DNA of 64,000 bases from Sinohyriopsis cumingii (Eukaryota; Mollusca; Bivalvia; Unionida; Unionidae), in assembly GCA_028554795.2 (NCBI GenBank), contig CM068826.1, forward strand, positions 99,469,846-99,533,845. Direction: 5' to 3'. Made by a program: the position numbers and the translations under genes. Positions 16,619-47,946 of the stretch are shown in pieces (position 1 is the first letter of the stretch; every line of letters begins with the position of its first letter). The notes beneath the pieces were generated by a model, which was not told the DNA's origin, did no database searches, and worked only from the letters and a program-made list of their open reading frames with translations.

Positions 16619-16674
16619 TATAAATTGTACACACTTTCAAGAATCCCACACAGCTAAATCTTTTGCGACGTTAG
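16619..16674 (+). promoter_or_regulatory. Putative core promoter and non-coding first exon of gene A
   Basis: TATAAATT at 16619-16626 is followed by a short stretch ending AATCTTTTGCGACGTTAG|GTACTGTGAAG. This parallels the gene B first exon, which ends CATCTTTTCAAATTAG|GTAAGTGAAG on the minus strand (37097). Distance reasoning supports it: 18891-19010 near gene A matches 34740-34860 inverted near gene B, and the gene B promoter lies 2.3 kb beyond that anchor, as here. The donor is weaker (GTACTG instead of GTAAGT), in line with the decay of gene A. Confidence 0.5.
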
Positions 16675-16679
16675 GTACT

Positions 16680-18890
16680 GTGAAGTTTATATATTTCGTA
16701 TTGAACACATATCCGCGGATGTTGTTACATAATTAGAATATGTTGATGTCGTTGCTTTCTTCGACATTTGTCATTCAAAGTCCTAGGAATTCAATGTAAA
16801 TTATAGTGTCAGTACTGCACTAATGACTGAAAGGTTGAGAAATACTTTTCCAATAGGAGTACTTTAATTAAATTGCAAGTCAAGCGAGAAATTGTTTATA
16901 TAGTTTCGATTACATACAAAACGTTTATGATTATGTATATTTTTAAGTGTGTCTGTTCTATGAAGGTATGCATGTAGATAAGTTTATATGAAATCACATG
17001 TCTTCATGACTATCTCCACCTGTATATGTTCACTGTTTGATTAATTTACTAATATTGAAATATCGTGAATGTTTTATCTGATGTTTCACAAGTTCAATTT
17101 TTGTGTTCTTTATGAATTGTTAGGACTGATCCAAAGTTGCTAGACCTATATGTGGGCTAAATAGTCAGCCAAATTGTTTACACACTGACCGACTTTATAA
17201 GAACCACACTCTATATTTTAAAGTGGAGTATGACATACTTATGGCTGAAACACTACGATGTCGAACTTCTTTTTCAATTCAATTAACATTTTACCAGTTT
17301 GGTTTTGATATATTATTTATTAAAACCAGCTTGTCTACCTCCATTAACATAGACTTATATATTTTAATTACTCAGACAATCAACTTAAGTTGAATGTAAG
17401 TTTCGTCCGATTGTCAATCAGTTAGAAACCTCTAGACTTGGGGCATTCCTGTTTTTATTGCAGGACAGGTTATTCAAAAGGGAACACTGAATATTATTTT
17501 GGCTTTTGACAATTGTATTTGATGCACAATTATAGCTTGCGGTTTTTGGCATTACCTGTAATAGTATTATGGAACAGATTATTATTTGTTTTTGATAGAT
17601 TTAGGTTTCTTTGCCCTCGGCTCTTCCAAGAGCTTTTCAAATACCTATAAAGATGATTCTTTTTGAAAACGACTGTATTCAGATTTGTTCATGTGTATTA
17701 ATTATTTGATAAACATATGAGGTTTTCGGTCAAAGTCATTACAAAGCCCTATCAGTAAGTAATTTATATGATTCTATTATTTGATGTTGATTGTTACGTA
17801 TATTTAAATTAATTGTTAATCTGTTAGATTCAATATTTGTTATTTCATTGTATGCTATATTAATGTAATTTTGTTTATTAAATTGATATTGTCCATAATA
17901 GTGTTCAGTTCTGATTGATTTTTATTTTTTTATTTTTTTTTATTTTCGACGTAAACAACTAACAAACGATACCTTGTAATTTTTGTTTTGGCTGACCTTA
18001 TTACACAATCAGTGACCGTTTTGGTAAACAACTGTTTAATTGTTTTAATTCTTTCTTAGAGTCAGAACCATTAAGTTGAGTAAATGTCCAGGCTGGTCGA
18101 CGTGATAGTTATCATGTAACAAGCTTTTGTGTCTTCCAGATGGTAGAACTCTTGATTCCCATTCTCGAATCTATTTTGCGTTGTTGCTGGTTTTATAACT
18201 GATGTTATGATATTAATTCTAGCAGTTCTGCCTTAACACTTGAGACGTCAAGTTGTTTTATGCTGTGTCCAACTTCGGTTGAGTTTATTTTTTCTTTTCT
18301 TCAAATTATTGAAATTCAAGTGATTCTTTGCCCTCGAAATACATAACTGCTCTGATAATTCTTAGAATTCTTTGGTAATTATACAGAATTAAAAAAACTG
18401 GAATAATATTTTCTTTGATTCAACATAGACTGTTGAAACTTCAAGACACTGCTGTGTATTACAGACGTCATGGTCCTCCATTTTGGATCCCATCGGGAAT
18501 TGAACTCTGATTCACTTAGAACTTATCATTGATAGGACTTGTGTTTTTGAAATCTAGGATAATGTTTTACTTAATTTGTAATACCGTAAGTTCCTTTGCT
18601 AGTTTTTTACTTAGTATTTTATGGAAATAAATTATTGTTTAATTTTACCAAGCTTGTTGTCTTCACTCTTTTGTTTACTTATTTCATATTTTGTAACATA
18701 ACATTTTCCCTAAAATAGTAGCTACTAAATCAGGGCGGATAGAAAGCATTCACCGCAAATATATATGTGCCATAGAATGAAGTAATTGACCGTCATATCT
18801 CTTATAGTTTATTTATTCATTGAACTTAATAGCAATAGTGGCAATTCATAAGAGAAAGGAAAAGCATACCCCATATAATTATCGACTCAT
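16680..18890. other. Presumed first intron of gene A; no coding signal
   Basis: A+T-rich, T-rich stretches, no supported exon on either strand. Confidence 0.45.
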
Positions 18891-19010
18891 GTATGTTATG
18901 TGGCTTAAACAGTTGCAAAACATGACAGCAACTATCTTTTCGGATATCTTAGAATATATGTGTTCCCATAATTCACAAACACGTTTCTGACAAAAGGATT
19001 AATTTCTAAT
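18891..19010. repeat. Inverted repeat segment (partner 34740-34860)
   Basis: The segment matches the reverse complement of 34740-34860; both contain 'CGTTTCTGACAAAAG' and a CATG[AT]CAGCA block. It lies upstream of gene A here and upstream of gene B there, so the two loci share more than their exons. Confidence 0.7.
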
Positions 19011-19644
19011 GGCACTGACAAGACCAAAATAAAAGTGGCTACTATCGATAGAATCAGGCGAAGTTACTGGCACACATTTTAGTTAATTTTAAAAGTATTT
19101 GCTAGCTTAAACCTTTCTTCAAACTCAGTTACCTTGGTAAAATCAGTTTTTGTACTAGTAAAAATAATTCCAATTCCGATCAACTTATATATTAAGGAGT
19201 GTTTTAAATGTCTCTATATATGTGCCTATTCATTGTTAACTGTTCAAAACAACAGTAGCCTTGTATACAAAATATGCTTCTACTCTGCATACAACTTATA
19301 CATCTCCAGAAAATATAAAGTTCAAATCCACTCCAATTAGCTCCTAGTTTAGTGCCTACAAAACAGAATAAGTATTGATGAATCTAAAATGAAATATATG
19401 GCTACGGGAACAAGGCAGAGCTTGTATTATAATGATTTAGTGACTTATAACTCAAAGTGACTTAGACGTAACTAGCGTTCAAACCATAAAACTTCTTGGT
19501 ATCTACATTGATCAATTTTTCAGCTAATATACACATATCAATCACATATCGCAACCGTTGTCAAAATACTACCTCTCATAACATTCTATCAAATTTGCCC
19601 GGAATCTTGAACTTTAATTTTCGATGTATACACCTTCGCTGTTA

Positions 19645-19734
19645 TATATATATATATATATATATATATATATATATATATATATATATATATATATATA
19701 TATATATATATATATATATATATATATATATATG
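19645..19734. repeat. (TA)n microsatellite
   Basis: About 45 TA units in the presumed first intron of gene A. Confidence 0.95.
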
Positions 19735-19978
19735 TACTTTTCGTAATGATAACTTCTCGCAATCTGAAGGGCAATACATATAGTTTTCTTAACTTAATAT
19801 GAAACATATTTTCGTGGCAAACATCAATAGAATGCCATTTCTACGCCTGTCCGTTATATTACTTCCTTGTCAACCGCTGAATATGATAATACTTTATCTC
19901 TAAAGTTCGTCTGAGGGAATAGATGGTGCAAACTTAATCTATTTCAAAATTCGACATGCGAAATACATGGATATATGC

Positions 19979-46753: not shown

Positions 46754-46767
46754 ATTGATCACCTGAA

Positions 46768-46843
46768 GTAGTGGTAGTAGTAGTAGTAGTAATAATAATA
46801 ATAATAATAATAATAATAATAATAATAATAATAATAATAATAA
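46768..46843 (-). repeat. (TAT/TAC)n next to the splice acceptor of gene C exon 1
   Basis: On the minus strand TAT units change to TAC units and run to CTACTTCAG|GTGATCAATATG. The same arrangement occurs in gene A at 19979-20018. Confidence 0.88.
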
Positions 46844-47099
46844 TTGTACTAGAAGCGGTAGTATTAGTAGTAGTATTAGTAGGGGATATTTACAAGTGGT
46901 GAATTCTTAAATGGTACCATGTAATATATACTCCCTCATATGTTAATGATCCTCCTGTACGCGTATGAAGTTTTCAATAAATTACATATCCGAAATATTC
47001 ATGTGTTATCTGCGAATATATAGGTTTCTTATGAGTATCATAATGTCACCGTAATGTTTTTAAACAACTGACTTAATTCCATCTTAGAACTGCTAGGAA

Positions 47100-47390
47100 A
47101 TGGATCCAAAGATCATACCTCTTTCAATATCGTCCTCACCTAAAAGAATTAAACCACGAAATGTAGTGATTAAGACCGAATTTAGCGGTAAGAAAGGAAA
47201 TCGCGTAAGTAGAGGCAAATCAGTGGACGAACAAACTGTGTGTATCCCAATATTCCTGACATATTTTAAACATCGGAATAAGATTAAGATCAGCAGCAGC
47301 AGCAGAAGCGTGAAAGAAACTAAGGATCAAGTTGATTTTAAAATGCTTATCGGTGCATCCAAGAAAACGAATGACAGAATAAAACCTTAG
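47100..47390 (+). CDS. Lysine-rich open frame in the presumed 5' intron of gene C, opposite strand
   Basis: ATG to TAG, 96 codons, starts MDPKIIPLSISSSPKRIKP, basic, serine-rich, with an AGC run coding four serines. No domain is recognised and there is no splice or poly(A) support. The reverse strand is also open over much of it. Chance is likely. Confidence 0.2.
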   Translation: MDPKIIPLSISSSPKRIKPRNVVIKTEFSGKKGNRVSRGKSVDEQTVCIPIFLTYFKHRNKIKISSSSRSVKETKDQVDFKMLIGASKKTNDRIKP

Positions 47391-47838
47391 AGTGGTCATC
47401 AAATATTTTTTGGGTGTTGTAGTACTACTGAATATAAATGGTTTGCACTGTATCACATTGACATTTCACATTATTTACTCATTTCAAACAGACGAAGATT
47501 AAACTTGTATGCAGTAAGGACATCAACTTACCACTCTGCATAGCAATACAACAACATGAAAATCAGGTGTACGTTTCTTTTTTTAAGATGATACAATCTA
47601 GCAGCTAAATGATTCGATTTGTCTATTATAATTATAGACAAAAAGAAACAATTTATTTTAAAAAAATACCCCTCCTTATGAGAAATGTTTAATTAAAAAT
47701 GATATGTTATTTGCTTGTAATACTTGCAAGCATTTCGAATATTTTGAACTAGAGGTTTCAAATATATTTGATAACATAGCAGAGAGCGAATCGCGTTCCA
47801 AGAAGAAAAATAAATAGTCAAAGGGTAGTTTAACTCAC

Positions 47839-47946
47839 CTAAATATCACAAAAAGATGCTCTGAAGCTAATGGTTTCTTCTTTACTTCTACTTCCAGTAC
47901 TCAGAGAGGGAATGAATTTCCTAGCTGAAGAATGCTACTTAAATAG
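47839..47946 (-). promoter_or_regulatory. Putative core promoter and non-coding first exon of gene C
   Basis: On the minus strand CTATTTAAGTAG (47946-47935) is followed about 100 bp on by CATCTTTTTGTGATATTTAG|GTGAGTT, last exon base 47839. It aligns along its length with the gene B region 37097-37190. The intron to the coding exon acceptor at 46762 would be about 1.08 kb. Transcription probably starts near 47910. Confidence 0.6.

Follow-up and report, generated by a model that had tools for sequence, protein, structure and literature searches.

A gene cluster under birth-and-death evolution, probably encoding small disulphide-rich secreted proteins, in the bivalve Sinohyriopsis cumingii

Three related genes in the window

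The window is the whole stretch of 64,000 nucleotides analysed here (C3:99,469,846-99,533,845), and the genome searched comprised 2.9 Gb in 1,138 contigs. Three genes, A, B and C, were recognised in the window. Copies outside it are called A', D and, for the C-type genes, C99184, C99219 and C99341. E1 denotes the first exon, which lies with the promoter, and E2-E5 are the coding exons; the 93-nt "exon 3" of the initial annotation is E4 here. The predicted gene models, which rest on splice sites and conservation, are as follows.

14226..14798, plus strand: gene A, promoter and first-exon module, splice donor following base 14790; one of twelve aligned copies
20019..20130, plus strand: gene A, E2, signal-peptide exon, without the donor GT that A' has there
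20449..20870, plus strand: gene A, E3, 422 nt where A' has 426, reading frame disrupted, with internal stops
22120..22212, plus strand: gene A, E4, 93 nt, open
37089..37706, minus strand: gene B, promoter and first-exon module, exon ends at 37097
34540..34550, minus strand: gene B, deletion junction, about 294 bp of D missing, including all of E2
34008..34310, minus strand: gene B, E3, 303 nt, open
33341..33433, minus strand: gene B, E4, 93 nt, open
30024..30204, minus strand: gene B, last exon E5, 181 nt (182 in D), frameshifted
47831..48350, minus strand: gene C, promoter and first-exon module, 3' end of exon 1 at 47839
46651..46762, minus strand: gene C, E2, signal-peptide-like, 112 nt (splice-site model)
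46175..46333, minus strand: gene C, E3, segment ending in KR followed by Cys1-3, 159 nt
45025..45117, minus strand: gene C, E4, 93 nt
44495..44658, minus strand: gene C, E5 including the stop, 164 nt
52376..52910, plus strand: fourth module, X, divergent from C; no coding exon was recognised between it and the end of the window

The predicted product of gene C is 172 aa long. It starts like a signal peptide, continues with a stretch that closes in KR, and then has eight cysteines (the 8-Cys domain). The coding exons E2-E5 of gene C are all joined in phase 1, and the stretch 47839-47934 at its first exon contains no ATG. Gene C is intact, while A and B are pseudogenes, so that two of the three window genes are dead. 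This agrees with the initial annotation, which had described one intact, one incomplete and one dead copy (here C, B and A), and the lesions in A and B could be located. At the locus of D (L045), the stretches 4736-5119 and 5414-7999 abut at window position ~34,546, and D's E2 lies at L045 5235-5346. Thus, gene B lacks the signal-peptide exon because about 294 bp present in D are missing at this point. For gene A, no E5 was recognised by the family HMM. In addition, a copy of gene A at +113.3 kb is 99.4-99.6% identical and has the same donor loss and the same broken stretch of E3.

The proposal that A, B and C are paralogous was confirmed by self-alignment of the window. For instance, A and B were 70.1% identical over 288 columns around E3 and 74.1% over 371 columns around E4, and C and A were 71.0% identical over 155 columns around E2; the coding-exon homology of the three genes was also seen as protein-level matches. 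Furthermore, six models are complete, namely C, A', D and those of the three outside C-type genes. Their coding introns are all in phase 1, as the proposed phase-1 exon chain demands, and E2 has 112 nt in all six. The 93-nt exon, which had been taken as common to the three window genes, holds for A, B and C and also for A' and D, whereas E4 has 90 nt in the three outside C-type copies.

Other repeats were also observed in the window. The stretches 1665-4019 (minus) and 25853-28037 (plus) are inverted and ~79-80% identical, and we take their ORF pieces to be reverse-transcriptase-like. A short repeat occurs in three copies (4026-4273, 50544-50792 and 58199-58414; 82-86% identity), and a direct repeat of ~800 bp (15-769 and 38344-39142) is 83% identical over a distance of 38 kb.

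The promoter and first-exon module

A module of ~575 bp, consisting of a TATA-like element and a short first exon, is common to A, B and C. The similarity of first exons was assessed by comparing the pairwise score with those of 500 dinucleotide shuffles. The score between C and B was 34, and only 1/500 shuffles scored as high. No shuffle reached the real score (0/500 each) for C with the 14.7-kb exon of A, for B with that exon and for C with the X module at 52 kb. Hence the shared promoter and first exon proposed for the three genes stand for B and C, and for A only at the exon ending at 14,790. This homologous exon is 1.9 kb upstream of the one originally assigned to A (~16,619-16,676, or 16.66 kb), which we rejected, as it was no better than shuffles: 119/500 scored as high against C, 160/500 against B and 439/500 against A's own 14.7-kb exon. 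A 221-base query around ~16.66 kb retrieved only itself from the window, a 200-kb stretch of the cluster and the D locus.

To search for further modules, we built an nhmmer model from six copies and scanned 277 kb at E < 1e-3. Seventeen full or partial modules were found, the six model copies included, and none in reversed sequence (264 kb, the window plus the 200-kb stretch). The module of gene A was matched at 2.6e-154 by a model that includes that same copy. The first exon is reached by 12 of the 17 modules; the other five contain just an upstream portion, with E 1.4e-8 for the weakest. The TATA-like element and the first exon can be aligned across twelve module copies. In A, A', B, D and the four C-type modules the donor GT is kept at one place, which is not clearly so in the four X copies. 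D's module is incomplete as seen, the sequence examined ending inside it. Chance likeness in A+T-rich DNA, which the initial annotation had itself raised, does describe the 16.66-kb exon of A. However, the shuffles speak against it for B, for C and for the relocated exon of A, and with the first exon reached by so many modules it is hardly credible as an account of the first-exon similarity.

The flanking similarities that had been cited in favour of shared DNA proved to be of two kinds. That between 37.6 and 48.2 kb is the module itself (68.6% over 239 columns, E 6e-16). That between 18.9 and 34.8 kb (67.9% over 168 columns) was rejected as a trace of gene duplication, and represents a dispersed repeat. 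All five tested copies on other scaffolds match A's 18.9-kb stretch more strongly than B does, and one of five matches B's 34.8-kb stretch more strongly than A does. This repeat of ~180 bp (window 18913-19094 and ~34760-34916) occurs at many places on other scaffolds with 69-74% identity.

Of the 17 modules, six head complete genes and two head A and B; for the other nine, neither a complete nor a broken gene was recognised. A same-strand solo E5 lies downstream of two of these nine and perhaps of a third. Besides the X module of the window, others lie at C3:99.192, 99.225 and 99.335 Mb, and an X module is found 1-5 kb from the module of each of the four C-type genes; no coding exons for X modules were found by the family HMM search. 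It is notable that promoter modules outnumber genes in the cluster. The 17 copies against six complete genes, and the X beside each C-type gene, could mean that the module itself is the multiplying unit, in a locus that serves as a regulatory cassette and gains, loses or swaps coding exons, some of them not yet recognised; we consider this reading improbable.

The cluster beyond the window and its mode of evolution

The three loci of the initial annotation are indeed related, but they are not the whole family, as the fourth module (52,376-52,910) and a cluster beyond the window exist. With A' as a query, 26/26 genome matches at E <= 1 fell on C3:99.1658-99.7277 Mb. With gene C, 14/14 matches at E < 0.1 fell on C3:99.165-99.728 Mb, among 102 matches listed to E 10. 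Residues ~80-155 of protein C gave 77 genome matches (24-29% identity, E 2-10), each with one TGA and one TAG as counted by eye, and these were judged to be chance repeat likeness. As far as the searches reach, the family matches span ~0.56 Mb of one scaffold (C3); restriction of the family to C3 is not proven by this, because the genome searches score the best candidates only. The main members outside the window are as follows.

99.184, 99.219 and 99.341 Mb: C-type genes C99184, C99219 and C99341, 170 aa each
99.2756-99.2804 Mb: gene A', 260 aa
99.4610-99.4662 Mb: gene D, 254 aa
99.4437 Mb: relative of A reduced to E4, with ~4 kb including E2 and E3 missing (only E4 found in the 5 kb examined)
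99.286 Mb: solo E2 remnant
99.166, 99.206 and 99.247 Mb: solo E5 remnants
99.574-99.579 Mb: copy of D, known from a search match
99.557 Mb: copy of the A relative, known from a search match
99.7275 Mb: E5-like match

The other remnants are window A with its +113.3-kb copy, and window B with a copy of B's last exon. The 200-kb stretch is filled with direct and inverted duplications of 0.7-16 kb and 76-99.8% identity, several of them above 96%. For example, a 16.3-kb copy 40 kb apart is 98.6% identical, and an inverted copy of 8.4 kb is 96.1% identical. In addition, paired matches at an offset of ~113.3 kb connect C3:99443.7-99499.9 kb, which covers window positions ~1-30 kb, with 99557.0-99613.3 kb. 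They point either to a segmental duplication of 56 kb or more, with 99.4-99.6% identity in the parts read, or to an uncollapsed haplotype.

Much of the apparent recent expansion could be an assembly artefact of uncollapsed haplotypes. The A copy at +113.3 kb with its identical lesions, the paired matches at that offset, the 16.3-kb copy and the pair C99184/C99219, which is nearly identical (dS 0.009), would fit such an artefact. However, dS between the complete genes, this pair apart, runs from about 0.03 to 1.9, and the 8.4-kb inverted copy is unlike a haplotig. We therefore regard the artefact as unlikely; if C99184 and C99219 were haplotypes, the six complete genes could become five.

Clustered paralogues of differing age were found, with intact and dead copies among them. 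Birth-and-death evolution, as proposed from the window, is well supported by the six complete genes, the broken A and B with copies 113 kb off, the solo exons, the gene-less modules and the duplications. This mode of evolution is ordinary; the family itself is unstudied. New copies would arise by direct and inverted segmental duplication, and many would be killed by deletions, frame breaks and splice-site loss. Such decay would leave behind disrupted genes, single exons and modules that head no gene.

The dN/dS ratios varied from 0.53 to 1.35 over seven pairs within subtypes. Among the three outside C-type copies they were 0.53, 0.98 and 1.35, with few changes; between these copies and window C they were 0.55-0.62, and between A' and D 0.74. 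Of these values only 1.35 exceeds 1, and it derives from 2.8 synonymous changes. Across subtypes, dN/dS was 0.41-0.72 in seven of eight pairs with dS near saturation, the eighth pair being not computable. Between C and C99341, the signal had a pN of 0.07, the acidic stretch 0.13 and the domain 0.25 (pS 0.07, 0.38 and 0.33). Between A' and D, pN was 0.29 for the signal, 0.41 for the linker and 0.30 for the domain (pS 0.48, 0.48 and 0.36). The genes evolve fast, at rates that fit relaxed constraint and diversifying selection alike.

Kinship with DUF4773 and possible function

We are confident, short of certainty, that A, B and C belong to one multigene family of small disulphide-rich putative secreted proteins in a birth-and-death cluster of ~0.56 Mb. 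A full copy would consist of the ~575-bp module, a short first exon and then four coding exons in phase 1. E2 would encode the signal peptide, E3 an acidic or linker segment, and the end of E3 together with E4 and E5 the Cys-rich domain. C-type precursors are possibly cut after KR. The product is probably secreted, because a signal-peptide-like E2 is combined with conserved cysteines. The C-type proteins and A' have eight cysteines and D has six. Since D and B lack both Cys3 and Cys4 together, these two probably pair with each other.

The closest known likeness is with Pfam PF15998 (DUF4773), whose gathering cut-off is 27 bits. The domain of A' matched it at E 0.0011 (19.9 bits, profile positions 4-100 of 118) and that of C at E 0.016 (16.2 bits, positions 23-111), both under the cut-off, and the whole proteins matched at E 0.013 (A') and 0.049 (C). 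The scan covered A', C, D, C99184 and C99341, and the last three of these five proteins gave no DUF4773 match (C99219 is nearly identical to C99184). None of ten Cys-fixed shuffles of the A' domain matched DUF4773. In hhalign, the score of the last exon against two DUF4773 exons was reached by 13/100 Cys-fixed shuffles. At E <= 10, PF15998 had 16 matches in the genome, two of them over the cut-off and none in C3:99.1-99.8 Mb; exons were taken singly in this search, which weakens the absence from the cluster.

A phase-1 intron 6-7 residues before the opening cysteine of the last exon, our own criterion, was found by eye. It was drawn from two DUF4773 loci of this genome, L041 over the cut-off and L042 just under it. 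The intron lies 6 residues before the cysteine in A' and C and 7 in the DUF4773 exons; the Cys5-Cys6 spacing is 12 in A' and C, and 12 and 11 in the two DUF4773 exons; and the weak HMM matches of A' and C cover most of the profile. However, D lacks Cys3 and Cys4, and a long linker (A' and D) or a KR segment (C-types) stands ahead of the domain. Judged by the profile scores, the family falls outside formal DUF4773 membership, but we think it rather probable that it is distantly related. Matches to Fer2, TssD, PHD, DUF321 and Pyrid_ox_like were rejected as below cut-offs. PDB sequences gave no match to the family alignment A1 at E <= 1, NCBIfam gave none with C and A', and the literature search by the accession PF15998 found none.

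Three published reports mention DUF4773. In the oyster, the listed markers of macrophage-like haemocytes include a DUF4773 gene. In octopus skin mucus, DUF4773 is among the proteins that fall over a time course. In locust pleuropodia, which are secretory organs, a DUF4773 gene ranks with the most abundant of the upregulated transcripts. A secretory role, as first proposed, is likely, and an immune effector role is plausible. The fast-changing domain would act extracellularly, and its most likely use would be in defence or secretion.

That the genes form a putative immune or mucosal effector family with pathogen-driven diversity is quite possible, if short of probable. The clustered gain and loss, the high within-subtype dN/dS, the greater change of the domain than of the signal and acidic stretch between C and C99341, and the oyster haemocyte marker all point this way. 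The DUF4773 likeness below the cut-off, with the oyster marker and the locust transcript, is a weak pointer. However, the family lacks formal DUF4773 membership, relaxed constraint after duplication leaves the same signature, the sole dN/dS above 1 comes from so few synonymous changes, and between A' and D the linker, not the domain, changes most. Mytilus antimicrobial-peptide families such as CRP-I are reported to show presence/absence variation in many of their copies, and the gain and loss seen here resemble it. The variation there is between individuals and here within one genome, and the likeness is by description, not sequence. A structural or matrix family of secretory proteins (mucus, shell or egg coat), evolving under relaxed constraint with no role in defence, is also conceivable, and we hold it tentatively: the octopus mucus and locust pleuropodia reports would suit it, but by eye no protein feature suggests a matrix role.

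The cluster is a clear and dissectable case in which duplication, exon loss and promoter survival are seen together. A search for coding exons alone would overlook about half of its promoter modules. DUF4773 is a domain of unknown function that is reported in mollusc mucus and haemocytes, and the cluster may connect a so far uncharacterised family with it.
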